A stretch of 64,000 bases of DNA from Blautia hansenii DSM 20583 (lineage in GTDB: Bacteria; Bacillota; Clostridia; Lachnospirales; Lachnospiraceae): contig NZ_CP022413.2 of the NCBI RefSeq assembly GCF_002222595.2, positions 1,380,001 through 1,444,000 on the forward strand. Direction: 5' to 3'. Of the stretch, positions 27,046 through 32,798 are shown piece after piece (position 1 is the first letter of the stretch; every line of letters starts with the position of its first letter). Position numbers and translations under genes: made by a program. The notes beneath the pieces were generated by a model, which saw only the letters and a list, made by a program, of their open reading frames with translations, made no database searches and was not told the DNA's origin.

Positions 27046-27194
27046 ATCATTTTCCTTTCTTTCTGCTTCTGAAAATCTACCATTATAGGATAAAATACAA
27101 AAAAATAAATGTCAAACGGAAATATTTTTAGGTTGGTTTAAAGCTTTTATAGTATAATTTAATCACTATTATAAAAATTTCGGAGGAACAGGAT

Positions 27195-27869
27195 ATGAGA
27201 TTATTACTTGCAGAAGATGAAAAAGCACTCTCAAAAGCGCTTACTGCAATTTTAGAAAGAAATAATTATTCCGTAGATGCTGTTTATGACGGACAGGCGG
27301 CTTTGGAATATCTGGAGGCAGATAATTATGATGGTGTTATTCTTGATATTATGATGCCCAAAATAGATGGAATTACGGTGTTAAAAGAAATCCGAAAGAA
27401 GGGGAATTTAATTCCTGTTTTGTTATTGACAGCAAAATCTGAAGTGGATGATAAGGTAGAAGGCTTAGATGCCGGAGCCAATGATTATCTTGCAAAGCCC
27501 TTTCATTCAAAAGAATTACTGGCACGAATTCGTGCTATGACACGTGTGCAGACAGGACAGACCGGTTCAATTCTTAAAATGGGGAATGTAACCTTAAATC
27601 GTGCAGCTTTTGAGCTTTCTACATCAAAAGGAAGCTTTCGACTGGCAAACAAAGAATTTCAGATGATAGAGCTTATGATGAGCAATCCGGGAGTTTTGAT
27701 TTCAGCAGAACGATTTATGGAAAAAATCTGGGGATATGACAGTGAGGCAGAAATCAATGTAGTATGGGTATATATTTCTTATTTGAGAAAAAAGCTGGCT
27801 GCGTTACAGGCAGATATTCAAATTAAAGTTACCAGAAGTGTAGGATATTCTCTGGAGGAAATAAAATGA
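27195..27869 (+). CDS. OmpR-family response regulator
   Basis: A 224-residue two-component regulator. The receiver domain has the acidic pocket EDE near the N-terminus, the phospho-acceptor Asp in VILDIMMPKIDG, TAKSEVDDKVEGLDAGANDYLAKPF with the conserved Lys, and a C-terminal winged helix (FELSTSKGSFRLANKEFQMIELM, then VVWVYISYLRKKL). CGGAGGAAC precedes the ATG. Its stop overlaps the kinase start (ATGA). A TATAAT lies at 27153-27158, without a clear -35. The surface-gene run VTC-DUF4956-DUF4353 follows the kinase and is its likely target. Confidence 0.95.
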   Translation: MRLLLAEDEKALSKALTAILERNNYSVDAVYDGQAALEYLEADNYDGVILDIMMPKIDGITVLKEIRKKGNLIPVLLLTAKSEVDDKVEGLDAGANDYLAKPFHSKELLARIRAMTRVQTGQTGSILKMGNVTLNRAAFELSTSKGSFRLANKEFQMIELMMSNPGVLISAERFMEKIWGYDSEAEINVVWVYISYLRKKLAALQADIQIKVTRSVGYSLEEIK

Positions 27870-29122
27870 TTGCAAAACTGCGGAAAAAATTGATTTTTGT
27901 GTCTATGGTTTCTCTTTTTATTGTTCTTTTTGTACTTATTCTTTCTATTGGAATTTTAAATTACAGAAAGCTTGTGACAGATGCGGACCATGTACTTTCT
28001 ATTTTGGCAGAAAATAACGGAAAGTTTCCGGAAAGAGAAGAACCGAAGGAACCGCCAAAGCCTGAAAAAAATTTTTCTGAAAAAAACCACCTTCTTTCGC
28101 CGGAATTACCTTATGAGTCAAGATATTTTTCAGCAACTGTAAATAAAGAAGGAGAAGTGCTTTCTGTGGAAGCAGGGAAAATTGTCACGGTAAACGAGGA
28201 AACAATTATCGAATACGTACAGGAGGTTTGGCAGAAGGGAAAGCAAAAAGGCTTTATTGAAAACTATCGTTTTTTATTAAGCCGTAATGACACAGAAATA
28301 CGTATTATTTTTTTAGACTGTGGAAGAAGCTTAAACACTTTTCGAATGTTTCTTTTTATTGCTGCTTTTGTGAGCTTTTTAGGATTTTTAGCAGTGTGTC
28401 TTTTAATGATTTTTTTATCTGCATATATTGTAAAACCGTTTTTAGAAAATTATGAAAAACAAAAGCGGTTTATCACCGATGCCGGACATGAATTGAAAAC
28501 TCCTCTTACAATTATTGACGCAGATGCAGAGGTTTTAGAAATGGATTTCGGAGAAAATGAATGGCTCAGTGATATTCAAAATCAAACAAAAAGGCTGACA
28601 GATTTAACAAACAATTTGATTTTATTGGCACGTATGGAAGAGGAAAGTATGAAGCTTCCTATGGTAGAATTTCCTTTATCAGATGTGGCAGAAGAAGTTA
28701 TAGGAAATTTCCAGACACTGGCAAAAGCTCAAAATAAATTTCTTCACGGAAAAATTCAGCCAATGATTTCTATGAAGGGAGATGAGAAAGCAATTCGCCA
28801 GTTAATCGGGATTTTACTGGATAATGCTGTGAAATATTCAGATGAAAAGGGAGAAATATTGCTGACTGTGGAAGTACAGAGAAATCACATTTTTCTTTCT
28901 GTTTTTAATACGACAGAATTTATAAATAAAAAAGAAATTGCTCATTTATTTGAGCGGTTTTATAGAGCGGATAAGTCTCGAAATTCGCAGACAGGGGGGT
29001 ATGGCATCGGGCTCTCTATTGCCGCTGCCACAGTGCGTGCGAATAAAGGCAAAATTTCTGCAATTACAGAAGATGAAAAATCTCTTAGAATTACAGCGGT
29101 ATTTCCAAATGGAAAAAAATAA
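27866..29122 (+). CDS. Sensor histidine kinase
   Basis: A 418-residue membrane kinase. Helix 1 spans about residues 11-30 (FVSMVSLFIVLFVLILSIGIL), then an extracytoplasmic sensor of about 125 residues with a Pro/Lys/Glu-rich patch (REEPKEPPKPEKNF), then helix 2 (FLFIAAFVSFLGFLAVCLLMI). There is no clear HAMP. The H box is DAGHELKTPLTII, the N box ILLDNAVKYSDEKG and the G box GGYGIGLSIAAATV. It is translationally coupled to the response regulator. Confidence 0.94.
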   Translation: MIAKLRKKLIFVSMVSLFIVLFVLILSIGILNYRKLVTDADHVLSILAENNGKFPEREEPKEPPKPEKNFSEKNHLLSPELPYESRYFSATVNKEGEVLSVEAGKIVTVNEETIIEYVQEVWQKGKQKGFIENYRFLLSRNDTEIRIIFLDCGRSLNTFRMFLFIAAFVSFLGFLAVCLLMIFLSAYIVKPFLENYEKQKRFITDAGHELKTPLTIIDADAEVLEMDFGENEWLSDIQNQTKRLTDLTNNLILLARMEEESMKLPMVEFPLSDVAEEVIGNFQTLAKAQNKFLHGKIQPMISMKGDEKAIRQLIGILLDNAVKYSDEKGEILLTVEVQRNHIFLSVFNTTEFINKKEIAHLFERFYRADKSRNSQTGGYGIGLSIAAATVRANKGKISAITEDEKSLRITAVFPNGKK

Positions 29123-29136
29123 ATTCTATTTTAAGT

Positions 29137-29164
29137 TTGATTAAGGTTTCTTCTTTATACTATG
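29137..29164 (+). promoter_or_regulatory. Possible promoter of the VTC-DUF4956 operon
   Basis: A TTTGAT/TACTAT pair with about 16-17 bp spacing lies in the 76-bp gap between the kinase and the VTC gene. It would allow separate expression of the surface genes; the match is moderate. Confidence 0.35.
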
Positions 29165-29198
29165 TCATGAAGAAAAACAATAGAAACAGGAGGAACTT

Positions 29199-29918
29199 AT
29201 GGCATATCAAGCTACATTTAAAAGATACGAATTAAAGTATTTGCTGTCAAAGAAGGAAAAAGAAAAAGTTCTTGAGGCTATGGCAGCATATATGGAATTA
29301 GACAAATATGGAAGATGCACCATACGAAATATTTATTTGGACACAGATAATTTTCGTTTAATCAGACGTTCTTTGGAAAAACCGGTCTACAAGGAAAAGC
29401 TTAGAATACGCAGTTATCGCAGAGTAGAACCACAAGATACGGTGTTCGTAGAATTAAAAAAGAAATATAAGTCGGTTGTATATAAACGCAGACTGGTGCT
29501 TTCAGAAAAAGAAGTCATGGAAAGCTTTCGAAAGGAAACGCCATTACCGCTCCATTCACAAATCGGAGATGAAATTGAATATTTTCGGGAATATTACGGA
29601 CATTTATATCCGGCTGTTTTCCTTTCTTACGAAAGAGAAGCTTATTTTATGAAAGATGGTTCTGATTTTCGTGTTACCTTTGATGAAAATATCTTGTACC
29701 GCAGAGAAAATTTTTCTCTTGGCAGTTCTGTTTACGGAACACCTCTTTTAGAAGAGGGTCAAACATTAATGGAAATTAAGACATCAGGGGGTATTCCTCT
29801 TTGGATGAGCCAAATTCTTACACAGTGCCATATTTATAAAACTTCATTTTCAAAATATGGACTGGCATATAAAAATATGATAGCCGAGAAAATACAGGGA
29901 GGAATAAAATATGCTTAA
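29199..29918 (+). CDS. VTC-domain protein, candidate polyphosphate polymerase
   Basis: The 239-residue protein is a stand-alone VTC/CYTH-like tunnel domain, the fold that makes polyphosphate from ATP in yeast Vtc4. Tunnel-lining residues are all present: KRYELKYLL, NIYLDTDNF, KLRIRSYRR, FVELKKKYKSVVYKRR, FLSYEREAYF, RVTFDENILY, LMEIKTSGG and SFSKYGLAYKN. No membrane segment is visible. The 3' end overlaps the DUF4956 membrane protein gene by eight bases, so the two are translated together and DUF4956 may be its membrane partner. Catalysis is inferred from conserved residues, not shown. Confidence 0.88.
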   Translation: MAYQATFKRYELKYLLSKKEKEKVLEAMAAYMELDKYGRCTIRNIYLDTDNFRLIRRSLEKPVYKEKLRIRSYRRVEPQDTVFVELKKKYKSVVYKRRLVLSEKEVMESFRKETPLPLHSQIGDEIEYFREYYGHLYPAVFLSYEREAYFMKDGSDFRVTFDENILYRRENFSLGSSVYGTPLLEEGQTLMEIKTSGGIPLWMSQILTQCHIYKTSFSKYGLAYKNMIAEKIQGGIKYA

Positions 29919-30606
29919 TCATTTGTTTAAAGGAATTTTTGATACAAGTACAACGGAGGTAATTGCAGTATCTGATTTTCTTCTGTGTGTGTGTTGTGCC
30001 TTGATAATCGGTCTGTTTCTGGCATTTGCCTATATGTACCGTATCCGCTATACGAAAAGCTTTGTGGCAACCTTAGCTGTGCTGCCTGCTGTTGTATGTG
30101 TAGTAATTATGATGGTAAACGGGAATGTAGGTGCTGGTGTAGCTGTTGCAGGAGCATTTAGTCTGGTGCGGTTTCGTTCTGTGCCCGGCTCAGCAAAGGA
30201 AATCGGAGCAATCTTTCTTGCAATGGGAACCGGTTTAGTAGTAGGAATGGGCTATTTAGGATATGGGATTTTAGTAGCTCTCTTATTGGGCAGTGTCAAT
30301 ATGATTTATAATTGTGTTGGCTTTGGTGCAGGGAAGAAAGCGGAATTATATAAGACATTACATATTACAATTCCGGAGGACTTGGATTATACAGGAGTTT
30401 TTGAGGAGATTTTACAGACATACACCTCTCAATATGAGGTTGTTCGAGTGAAAACCACAAATATGGGAAGCTTATTTAAACTTACTTATAATTTGACTTT
30501 AAAAAACAAAGAACAGGAAAAAGAGTTTATTGACGAATTGCGTTGCCGAAATGGAAATTTGGAAATTACCATGTCAAAGCAGGAAACGGCAATCGGAGAA
30601 TTATAA
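29911..30606 (+). CDS. DUF4956 membrane protein
   Basis: A 231-residue integral membrane protein. About four helices fall in residues 20-135 (FLLCVCCALIIGLFLAFAYM, FVATLAVLPAVVCVVIMMV, the Gly/Ala-rich VAVAGAFSLVRFRSVPGSA, and MGYLGYGILVALLLGSVNMIY). GAFSLVRFRS is the family hallmark. The last 90 residues form a cytosolic alpha-beta domain. The family commonly sits beside VTC proteins and CotH or carbohydrate-binding proteins in Clostridia. Its function is unknown; a channel or scaffold for the VTC product is an inference. Confidence 0.88.
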   Translation: MLNHLFKGIFDTSTTEVIAVSDFLLCVCCALIIGLFLAFAYMYRIRYTKSFVATLAVLPAVVCVVIMMVNGNVGAGVAVAGAFSLVRFRSVPGSAKEIGAIFLAMGTGLVVGMGYLGYGILVALLLGSVNMIYNCVGFGAGKKAELYKTLHITIPEDLDYTGVFEEILQTYTSQYEVVRVKTTNMGSLFKLTYNLTLKNKEQEKEFIDELRCRNGNLEITMSKQETAIGEL

Positions 30607-30618
30607 GGAGAATAATAC

Positions 30619-32106
30619 ATGAAGAAAAAAGTATATATGCTTCTGCTTGCTCTTGGAACGATATTGCTGTGTAGTTGCCAAAATCAACCGGTGTCAGAAA
30701 GCAAGTCTGACGGACAGACGGAAGAAAACAGCGTAGAGATTGACCTTACAGGAAACAGCGCAGAATGCACGTCAAAAGCAGTTGAAGTATCAGAAGGAAA
30801 GGTACGAATTACAGACGAGGGTACTTATACTTTGTCGGGAACATTGGAAGGAAGCGTTATCATTGATGCAAGTAATACCGATAAAGTAGAGTTAATATTA
30901 AAAAATGCGGAAATTAACAGCGCTGACTTTGCCGCTATTTATGTGCTGTCAGCGGATAAGGTTACAATTACGACAGAGGAGGAAACACAAAACAGTCTTT
31001 CGAATAGCGGAGAATATCAAAATATAGATGAAAATCAAGTAGACGGAGTTGTTTTTTCAAAAGCCGATTTAACTCTAAAAGGAGAAGGAATATTAAATAT
31101 TCAGGCTTCTTATGGACACGGAATTGTGTCCAAGGATGAATTGATTTTCAGCAGCGGTACTTACGATATTACTGTAGCATCCCATGGAATTACAGGTAAG
31201 GACTGTGTAGAAATTACAGGTGGAGCTTATAGCATTACAGCAGGGAAAGACGGTATTCATGCAGAAAATAAGGATGACAGCAATTTGGGTTATCTCCATA
31301 TAGGAGACGGAGAGTTTACGATAAATGCAGGAGATGACGGAATACACAGTGCGTCACAGGTTATGATTGCAGGCGGAAAAGTGGATATTACAAACAGCTA
31401 TGAGGGAATAGAGGGACTGAGTATTGATATTACAGGAGGCGATATACAGATTACGGCAAGTGATGATGGAATGAATGCCGCAGGAGGAGCAGACGGCAGC
31501 AGTACAGGAGGAAAAGAGGAGGATATTTTTGCTGTTACAGAAGGCGCTTATATACAGATTTCAGGAGGAACTGTCTCAGTGAATGCTTCCGGAGACGGAT
31601 TGGACTCTAACGGAGATTTGACGATTTCAGGAGGAAAAACTTATGTATCTGGTTCACAGGAGGGAAGTAACGGAGCAGTTGATTATAATGGAAAAGGTAC
31701 AATAACCGGAGGTATTTTTGCTGCCGCAGGAGCATCGGGTATGGCACAGAATTTTCAGGAAGCTTCTACGCAGGGAGCAATATTGATTTCTACGGAACAG
31801 CAGGAAGCGCAAAGCTCTGTGGTTCTTTATGACAGCGAGGGAAAGGAATTGCTTAACTGGCAGCCTTTAAAGGCATATTCCAGTGTTCTTGTCAGTTGTC
31901 CGGAAATCAAGGAAGACGGCACTTATCAGCTAAGTGCAGGCAACAGCAGCAGTGAAATTACCATGACCGGTCTGATTTACGGAACAGAGCAAATGCAGGG
32001 AGGAGCTATGGGAGAAAGGAAAGCTCCTTTCGAGGGAGGACAAATGCCTGAGGGACAACCGGGAGAGCCACCAGAGGGGCAGGATAACAGAATGCCTCCG
32101 GCTTAA
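30619..32106 (+). CDS. Secreted carbohydrate-binding-domain (DUF4353-type) lipoprotein
   Basis: A 495-residue extracellular protein. The signal peptide ends in a lipobox-like LLCSCQ, with the lipidated cysteine near residue 20. The body is a repetitive beta-helix or beta-solenoid with recurring ITGG, ITAGKDGIHAEN, INAGDDGIHSAS, ITASDDGMNAAGG and VNASGDGLDSNGD turns, the DUF4353 pattern. The C-terminus is Gly/Pro/Glu-rich (GGQMPEGQPGEPPEG), like a wall-spanning or flexible tail. It is 12 bp after the DUF4956 gene. Related proteins are associated with CotH-type kinases, but no cotH gene lies in this window. Confidence 0.87.
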   Translation: MKKKVYMLLLALGTILLCSCQNQPVSESKSDGQTEENSVEIDLTGNSAECTSKAVEVSEGKVRITDEGTYTLSGTLEGSVIIDASNTDKVELILKNAEINSADFAAIYVLSADKVTITTEEETQNSLSNSGEYQNIDENQVDGVVFSKADLTLKGEGILNIQASYGHGIVSKDELIFSSGTYDITVASHGITGKDCVEITGGAYSITAGKDGIHAENKDDSNLGYLHIGDGEFTINAGDDGIHSASQVMIAGGKVDITNSYEGIEGLSIDITGGDIQITASDDGMNAAGGADGSSTGGKEEDIFAVTEGAYIQISGGTVSVNASGDGLDSNGDLTISGGKTYVSGSQEGSNGAVDYNGKGTITGGIFAAAGASGMAQNFQEASTQGAILISTEQQEAQSSVVLYDSEGKELLNWQPLKAYSSVLVSCPEIKEDGTYQLSAGNSSSEITMTGLIYGTEQMQGGAMGERKAPFEGGQMPEGQPGEPPEGQDNRMPPA

Positions 32107-32185
32107 ATTTTATAAGATTAAGATAGCAATCAAGTCTGATTTGAAGTATAATAATAACAGAAACGGAAAGGAAGGGAATAGAAGA

Positions 32186-32752
32186 ATGAAAGTATTATTA
32201 TTAAACGGAAGTCCCAGAAAAGAAGGGTGTACTTTTACAGCATTAAATCAGATAGCAGAGTCATTAAACAAACAGGGAATAGAAACAGAAATTTTTCAGG
32301 CGGGAAATGCTGACATGGAAAATGTAAAAGAGGCTGCGAAAAAATTGGAAACAGCCGATGGACTGATTGTAGGTTCACCTGTATATTGGGCTTCTCCCAC
32401 AGGACAGATTATAGAGTTTATGGATAAACTTTCTTCATTGGCAGGAAAGCACATGCTATATAAACCGGCGGCAGCTATCGCATCAGCAAGACGTGCGGGA
32501 ACAACGGCAACCTTGGAGGTTCTTACAAAATATTTCCAATTTTTCCAGATGCCTGTCATTTCATCAAATTATTGGAATATGGTTCATGGAAATACACCGG
32601 AAGAAGTAATGCAGGACGAAGAAGGACTTCAAATTATGAGAACGCTGGGTACCAATATGGCATGGGTTTTAAAGTGTCTGGAAGCAGGAAAAAATGCCGG
32701 TATTAAGAAACCTACACCGGAAGAAAAAATCAAAACGAATTTTATAAGATAA
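32186..32752 (+). CDS. Flavodoxin-like NAD(P)H:FMN reductase
   Basis: A 188-residue flavoprotein. It starts MKVLLLNGSPRKEGCTFTAL, the phosphate-binding loop of the NADPH-dependent FMN reductase/iron-sulfur flavoprotein group, followed by GLIVGSPVYWASPTGQIIEFMDKL and ASARRAGTTATLEVLTKYF. The ATG at 32186 is used since AAGGAAGGG precedes it; the frame is open 45 bases upstream. There is no CxxC cluster motif, so an ordinary FMN reductase or quinone reductase is likely. It is followed by a terminator. Confidence 0.88.
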   Translation: MKVLLLNGSPRKEGCTFTALNQIAESLNKQGIETEIFQAGNADMENVKEAAKKLETADGLIVGSPVYWASPTGQIIEFMDKLSSLAGKHMLYKPAAAIASARRAGTTATLEVLTKYFQFFQMPVISSNYWNMVHGNTPEEVMQDEEGLQIMRTLGTNMAWVLKCLEAGKNAGIKKPTPEEKIKTNFIR

Positions 32753-32758
32753 GGAAAT

Positions 32759-32798
32759 AGGCGAAAGGTTGGAGTAAAATCAGCTTTTCGCCTTTATT
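32759..32798 (+). terminator. Terminator after the flavodoxin-like gene
   Basis: AGGCGAAAG (32759-32767) pairs with CTTTTCGCCT (32784-32793), followed by TTATT. Confidence 0.75.

Follow-up and report, generated by a model that had tools for sequence, protein, structure and literature searches.

What would a bacterium do with a polyphosphate polymerase of the VTC type, a class mostly discussed as eukaryotic, whose gene stands between those of a two-component system (TCS) and a predicted surface lipoprotein? The question is raised by a locus of Blautia hansenii DSM 20583, in a stretch of 64,000 nucleotides (positions 1380001-1444000 of a 3.07 Mb genome in one contig) that is called the window here. 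Five forward-strand genes of the window encode, in order, an OmpR/PhoB-type response regulator (27195..27869; Pfam Response_reg at 5e-33, Trans_reg_C at 9e-19), a membrane sensor histidine kinase (27866..29122; HisKA at 1e-11, HATPase_c at 4e-18), a VTC-type polyphosphate polymerase of 239 amino acids with the triphosphate tunnel metalloenzyme (TTM) fold (29199..29918; VTC at 1e-42), a DUF4956 membrane protein (29911..30606; DUF4956 at 4e-14) and a beta-helix lipoprotein of the Cthe_2159 family with a Gly/Met/Pro-rich tail (30619..32106; Cthe_2159 at 2e-74). Our answer, to which we assign a probability of about 0.45, is that these genes form a dedicated polyphosphate (polyP) cassette controlled by the TCS, with an operator-switched VTC gene, DUF4956 as its partner and Cthe_2159 as its surface client.

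In the proposed sequence of events, the kinase would sense an envelope signal, and the regulator would bind a direct repeat, TTAAG-N5-TTAAG, before the VTC gene and a similar one before its own gene, the bound regulator activating a promoter with a weak -35 element. On the inner side of the membrane, the VTC protein would build polyP from the gamma-phosphate of ATP, and DUF4956, translated with VTC, would most likely receive or conduct the anionic chain past an invariant Arg-x-Arg. Outside, Cthe_2159 would work with the product as a surface client, for instance as a lipoprotein that binds polysaccharide, and calcium as well, in combination with polyP. The computed support comes from gene linkage, the operator, the catalytic residues, the fold and the MgtC homology; DNA binding itself, enzyme activity, membrane passage, the role of the lipoprotein and the nature of the signal are what we infer from it.

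Conservation of the cassette

The preliminary description of this DNA had grouped five open reading frames (ORFs) of one direction into a single system, with a membrane protein translated together with VTC and a secreted beta-solenoid lipoprotein. The coordinates proved exact, and each ORF carries the expected Pfam domains. The regulator and kinase ORFs overlap by 4 nt, the start of DUF4956 and the stop of VTC share 8 nt, a Shine-Dalgarno-like GGAGG lying within VTC, and 12 nt separate DUF4956 from the lipoprotein gene, which begins with a plausible lipobox.

Two samples were used to follow this arrangement. The closest set holds the 80 closest loci from species genomes, with flanks of up to 10 kb, and comes to 81 with the window. 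The family set began as 120 stretches taken from across the family's genomes, hand-picked down an E-value-ordered list of best VTC matches, so that weaker matches are under-represented; it includes four chosen for interest (the genome's own second VTC locus, G028 and two of G102), and one locus without VTC (L231) was dropped to leave 119. Together these make 200 loci, or 197 distinct ones, as three near-identical pairs (at least 97% identity in VTC) are shared between the sets. A simple rule defined the ORFs, home-made profiles applied within 4.5 kb assigned the partner classes, and co-occurrence over 150 family genomes was counted by hand from genome rows. Since related sequences share ancestry, the p-values given below overstate independence.

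VTC, DUF4956 and Cthe_2159 occur together in 72 of the 81 loci of the closest set, with a kinase or regulator gene linked in 53 of the 72, which bears out the grouping into one system; in five of the nine remaining loci the sequence extends less than 2.2 kb downstream. In the family set DUF4956 is present at 116 of 119 VTC loci, and the third partner is Cthe_2159 at 49, CotH at 36, neither at 34 and both at none. Counted over distinct loci, there are 192 with DUF4956, 118 with Cthe_2159, 36 with CotH and 43 with neither. DUF4956 lies 3' of VTC on the same strand in 195 of the 200 loci, overlapping it in 125. At the level of whole genomes, 112 of the 150 have a VTC match, and DUF4956 is found in 108 of these versus 0 of the other 38, Cthe_2159 in 91 versus 9, and CotH in 70 versus 4. 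A Pfam DUF4956 match is lacking in four VTC genomes (G118, G025, G126 and G133), of which G118 has the protein by our own profile (L219). Among 14 control genomes, DUF4956 occurs in the same three as VTC (a Bacteroides, a Corynebacterium and a Methanosarcina). Pairwise distances of VTC and DUF4956 correlate at r = 0.84 over 68 loci, against a permuted maximum of 0.24. These data support the five genes as a conserved unit, and the locus counts rule out chance adjacency of the cassette genes.

Some relatives show other arrangements. The closest one (L033:9929-10885; VTC identity 85%) keeps the regulator, kinase, operator and VTC, with DUF4956 and Cthe_2159 gone; this loss, between VTC and a flavodoxin gene, is either a natural deletion or an assembly effect. 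A DUF4956-Cthe_2159 pair without an adjacent VTC match is seen at L231:6118-9005; the single VTC match of its genome (G102) is elsewhere, with CotH. A genus-level search found the VTC gene to be patchy, with some match in 16 of 20 genomes and a window-like one (at least 47% identity over most of the query) in nine of those 16; one genome (G162) has an additional short N-terminal VTC fragment elsewhere. The top-matching named record is Blautia sp. Marseille-P3201T, with a VTC identity of 85%.

DUF4956 and the MgtC superfamily

The predicted model of the window's DUF4956 protein (pLDDT 82.2) has five membrane-length helices (residues 20-42, 49-68, 73-90, 95-112 and 116-136) followed by a C-terminal ferredoxin/ACT-like domain. 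Profile comparison by hhalign with eight MgtC-family proteins gave a probability of 95.7% and an E-value of 1e-8 over 209 columns that include the C-terminal domain, at 14% identity. The MgtC profile PF02308 matches 16 of 55 DUF4956 members at E <= 1 (best 1e-6), the window protein not among them, and finds no match in the source genome at E 0.001. A Foldseek search with the whole model returned no match at E <= 0.001, and a second look listed matches to the C-terminal ferredoxin-like part only. By profile comparison, then, DUF4956 is a predicted member of the MgtC superfamily that lies outside the MgtC family proper. Four sub-cut-off MgtC matches in relatives (L242-L245) resemble DUF4956: L245 matches our DUF4956 profile at 1.5e-15, and by eye L242-L244 have the same RFR segment, with a VTC-like ORF beside L243 and L244 and a CotH-like one beside L242. 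Some annotations may therefore call DUF4956 proteins MgtC.

Residues G81, R87, R89 and G108 of DUF4956 are identical in 194 of 195 sequences, the remaining row being a gap, and the invariant columns of the MgtC alignment include no Arg pair corresponding to the Arg-x-Arg. The positive-inside rule would place the Arg pair at the cytosolic end of helix 3. An excerpt of PMC9911596 describes the channel of yeast VTC as lined by basic residues, and by analogy the pair may line a channel here. The near-constant pairing with VTC, the gene overlap, the distance correlation and the invariant Arg pair are the grounds on which we take DUF4956 to couple to VTC or to conduct its product.

The MgtC relation opens a regulatory role for DUF4956 besides that of a channel. 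It is possible, if unlikely, that DUF4956 is an MgtC-like regulator that tunes VTC or the linked kinase by binding membrane proteins (a histidine kinase, or a complex that makes or consumes ATP). In that case polyP would stay in the cell to buffer phosphate or energy, and Cthe_2159 would merely be co-regulated. The breadth of the profile match, which takes in the C-terminal domain, and the kinase linked to DUF4956 at the window locus agree with this, and the binding and activation of the PhoR histidine kinase by an MgtC protein, recorded in an excerpt of PMC6658541, keeps the explanation alive. Against it stands the invariant Arg-x-Arg, with no counterpart among the invariant MgtC columns; furthermore, DUF4956 without a VTC match was found in 0 of 150 genomes and a linked TCS is absent from many VTC-DUF4956 loci, which together favour a VTC-specific role.

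The VTC-type protein

The VTC protein scores 146.7 bits against a curated Pfam cut-off of 23 and has the tunnel fold of the TTM domain of Vtc2/3/4. The preliminary description had credited it with the full set of tunnel residues, and alignment with Vtc4 agrees, mapping 11 of 11, four of them through a weak second alignment stretch: K200, R264, R266, K281, K294 and R361 of Vtc4 correspond to K13, R69, R71, K87, K96 and R146, and R373, E426, K428, S457 and K458 to R158, E192, K194, S218 and K219. In the relatives, eight of the 11 are identical in 200/200 sequences and the other three in 199/200. Positions besides R264, R266 and E426 are ones that we take to be important in Vtc4. Changing R264/R266/E426 inactivated that enzyme, according to an excerpt of PMC9911596. 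No SPX or Vtc1-type membrane domain was found, as only VTC, DUF4956 and Cthe_2159 exceed their Pfam cut-offs in the three proteins.

The tunnel residues and the fold make it likely that VTC synthesises polyP. It seems quite improbable that the protein is a TTM-fold enzyme with a different job, such as hydrolysis of tripolyphosphate or transfer of nucleotide phosphate to a cell-wall or lipoprotein acceptor. The idea that VTC replaces the polyphosphate kinase PPK1 was also considered, and is ruled out because PPK1 is equally common with and without VTC (98/112 versus 32/38 genomes; p = 0.59).

The Cthe_2159 lipoprotein

The window protein, whose start is MKKKVYMLLLALGTILLCSC, matches PF14262 (Cthe_2159) at 250.7 bits, and the structures 4peu/4phb of the Protein Data Bank represent a relative found at 9e-30. 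A home-made lipobox rule is passed by 103 of 121 linked Cthe_2159 relatives, the window protein included, and eight of the 121 have a hydrophobic C-terminal stretch. The founder protein binds cellulose and polygalacturonic acid, as reported in an excerpt of PMC6712302. Linkage, repeated recruitment to VTC loci (below) and the predicted extracellular location lead us to regard Cthe_2159 as a putative surface client.

Linkage of the two-component system

In the family set a TCS gene is near 23 of 49 Cthe_2159 loci versus five of 36 CotH loci (Fisher p = 0.002). Kinase and regulator genes of the closest set are densest directly before VTC, at 0.54-0.59 per kb; the density is 0.13 for the third upstream kb, 0.13-0.17 at downstream TCS positions and 0-0.07 beyond 3 kb upstream or 5 kb downstream. 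Across 76 Cthe_2159 loci, the TCS gene closest to VTC lies upstream in line at 34, upstream and divergent at 30, downstream in line at 11 and downstream and opposite at one, and hence the linkage is not one frozen arrangement. In a tree of 79 kinases, 70 of the 73 VTC-linked kinases of Cthe_2159 loci form one clade with no distant kinases inside, although the controls are few (six). Sensors of 92 loci with a nearby kinase fall into type A (74), type B (8) and other (10); the window's kinase is of type A, with the SPELPYESRYFS segment. The regulator and kinase do not reach the NCBIfam equivalog cut-offs for RppA and RppB (214 of 250 bits and 164 of 400 bits).

A candidate operator before VTC

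When upstream regions were compared side by side, a TTTTAAGTTnnnnTTAAGGTT-like block with a -10-like box after it was seen to recur. In the window it forms the predicted operator and promoter of the VTC operon (29129..29164, forward strand), with TTAAG repeats at 29131-29135 and 29141-29145 and a -10-like TATACT at 29156-29161. A second operator-like direct repeat with a -10-like box (27126..27161, forward strand) lies before the regulator gene, suggesting probable autoregulation; a site at this position was found in 15 of 35 type-A loci with the TCS upstream in line.

A position weight matrix (PWM) of 36 positions was trained on 38 loci with Cthe_2159 and a TCS (32 used), with the 99% level of 4000 random 300-nt stretches as threshold; the halves were split by locus and not by kinship, so near-identical pairs could be shared. 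It exceeded the threshold at 29/38 held-out loci with Cthe_2159 and a TCS, 17/45 with Cthe_2159 and no TCS, 5/14 with neither partner and a TCS, 3/29 with neither partner and no TCS, 2/5 with CotH and a TCS and 1/31 with CotH and no TCS. On both strands of the window, the top match is the site before VTC (27.1), followed by that before the regulator gene (17.9, also an exact pattern match) and a third of 4.6 (99% null threshold 0.74). A stricter PWM was built from 51 loci of the closest set, the window being excluded (39 used), and applied to family loci that do not belong to that set. It gave 18/22, 6/25, 3/9, 2/25, 2/5 and 1/31 for the same classes, and scored the window site before VTC at 28.0 against a threshold of 2.48. 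The exact operator pattern has two matches in the 3.07 Mb genome, both at the cassette, although the pattern was written after seeing both sites and their recovery is therefore not independent. Allowing up to one mismatch gives eight places (12 with the reversed control), and the six extra ones have PWM scores of -9 or less at the position of the match.

Sensor type and operator vary together. Operator 1, the TTAAG repeat, is present in 65/74 type-A loci, 0/8 type-B and 3/10 other loci, whereas operator 2 (TTCAAT-spacer-TTCAAT) is present in 0/74, 7/8 and 0/10, and also in 2/108 loci without a nearby kinase, both with Cthe_2159. Over distinct loci the figures are 63/72 type-A loci for operator 1 and 7/8 type-B loci for operator 2. 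Type B may reflect one joint replacement of the sensor pair and its operator, as would be expected if the linked regulator binds there. The conserved predicted operator and its co-variation with kinase type thus argue for action of the regulator upstream of 29199. That the TCS and the VTC operon are chance neighbours, the first acting on unrelated targets and the second controlled by something else, accords with the 45 of 121 Cthe_2159 loci that have no TCS within 4.5 kb, but is very improbable given the density peak upstream of VTC, the operator before VTC even where the TCS is downstream or divergent, and the co-variation.

Several observations weigh against the proposed polyP cassette. The second alignment stretch, from which the mapping of E426, K428, S457 and K458 was taken, scores near zero alone, and PPK1 is also encoded in the source genome, which means that polyP may arise without VTC as well. 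No MgtC protein is known to serve as a polymer channel. The parts of the cassette are separable, as L033 is without DUF4956 and Cthe_2159 and L231 has both without an adjacent VTC. Beyond the linked Cthe_2159 loci without a nearby TCS (45/121), operator 1 is absent in 9/74 type-A loci and present in 17/45 Cthe_2159 loci without a linked TCS. Finally, the type-B loci in the VTC tree (L061, L143, L156 and L157) are one clade, nested among A loci, and the operator switch may therefore be a single event.

CotH and Cthe_2159 as alternative partners

A tree of 140 VTC proteins divides into two clades with support of 100/100. The clade of 46 has CotH at 34 loci, Cthe_2159 at seven and neither at five; the clade of 94, to which the window VTC belongs, has Cthe_2159 at 61, neither at 31 and CotH at two, one of which (L131) has its CotH gene about 2.8 kb off on the opposite strand. 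The seven Cthe_2159 rows are nested within the CotH clade, and thus Cthe_2159 joined VTC-DUF4956 more than once. No match to CotH (PF08757) was found in the whole source genome. The preliminary description had called CotH missing from the cluster; since CotH belongs mainly to the other VTC clade, its loss from the window locus is ruled out, and the cassette is complete for its own clade. CotH is an alternative third partner and not a lost part. Of the earlier interpretation, the conserved unit, the tunnel residues and the regulator acting before 29199 are supported, and CotH as a lost part is not.

A broader reading, which we hold to be doubtful, is that of a bacterial VTC complex, in which a free-standing polymerase feeds an MgtC-superfamily translocon (DUF4956, evolved separately from yeast Vtc1) and polyP, made in the cytosol and then exported, serves interchangeable surface clients. 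Taken jointly with its particulars it is no less doubtful: the clients would be CotH kinases in one VTC clade and Cthe_2159 of the pectin-binding type in the other, with the sensor controlling this operon only. The CotH kinases could use polyP as phosphate donor where ATP is absent.

The source genome has a second VTC locus (G000:C1:972404-977000; L229:7369-11515), on a long branch of the other clade, which encodes VTC, DUF4956, an MBL-fold lipoprotein-like protein, a second DUF4956, a SigI-like sigma factor and an RsgI_N-type anti-sigma factor, and is preceded by two ABC transporter genes. "SigI-like" is our own reading of a Sigma70_r2 match beside RsgI_N. SigI/RsgI as a general partner of VTC is ruled out, with a SigI-like gene in one further locus (L230) by single-sequence search. 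At loci with neither partner, a GT2 glycosyltransferase gene (L203), or genes for an aldose epimerase and a GGDEF-EAL protein (L116), occupy the third-gene position or the one next to it, and are possible further client types.

Relation to known systems

Parts of this arrangement are already in print. An excerpt of PMC7112168 describes cotH, polyphosphate polymerase, DUF4956 and DUF4832 accessory genes beside Gram-positive pel operons, which share with the window a polymerase and DUF4956 beside surface-acting genes; the window differs in that no CotH was found genome-wide and a Cthe_2159 lipoprotein is encoded instead, with a dedicated TCS and predicted operator. A similar CotH cluster is NELoc-2 of Clostridium perfringens, for which an excerpt of PMC2879425 lists a sigma factor, two VTC proteins, two proteins annotated as tubulin/FtsZ and CotH. 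There each VTC gene is followed by one for a predicted cytoplasmic-membrane protein of 222-226 aa, DUF4956-like by size only; unlike the window, the cluster is of CotH type with a sigma factor, no Cthe_2159 is named in that excerpt, and it is closer to the second VTC locus described above. The eukaryotic VTC complex (Vtc1/Vtc3/Vtc4; excerpt of PMC9911596) has a tunnel-fold polymerase with the same catalytic residues, and its membrane coupling is presumed to have a parallel here, although the window protein is without SPX and without a fused membrane domain, and its membrane partner is MgtC-like. DUF4956 shares with the MgtC family (PF02308) the predicted five-helix membrane part and C-terminal ferredoxin/ACT-like domain, and differs in its 14% identity, its other invariant residues, its Arg-x-Arg and its occurrence with VTC. 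Cthe_2159 of Clostridium thermocellum (4peu, 4phb) belongs to the same beta-helix family as the window lipoprotein, which in contrast is encoded in a predicted polyP operon. Searches of open-licence PMC papers returned no report of the DUF4956-MgtC relation, of the VTC-Cthe_2159-TCS unit, of the dedicated TCS and operator of the Cthe_2159 variant or of the mutual exclusion of CotH and Cthe_2159.

If the cassette works as proposed, it would provide a regulated polyP route to the bacterial surface, a role and an ancestry for DUF4956, and a phosphate source for extracellular CotH kinases. Through the predicted operator, a single binding assay could test the regulation, and the exchange of CotH for Cthe_2159 makes the client hypothesis testable by gene swapping.

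Neighbouring features

A scan of the window with Rfam gave no match at gathering scores. A simple promoter scan of the window found 22 candidates versus 18.9 expected, the operator promoter not among them, and is uninformative. Downstream of the lipoprotein gene lies a gene for a flavodoxin-like FMN reductase (32183..32752, forward strand; FMN_red at 6e-29), which may be co-transcribed with the cassette; among the neighbourhoods printed, a flavodoxin gene at that position is seen in the window and L033 only, which places it outside the conserved unit. It is followed on the same strand by a terminator-like hairpin (32759..32793) with a 14-pair stem and a T-rich tail, identified by consensus match only.

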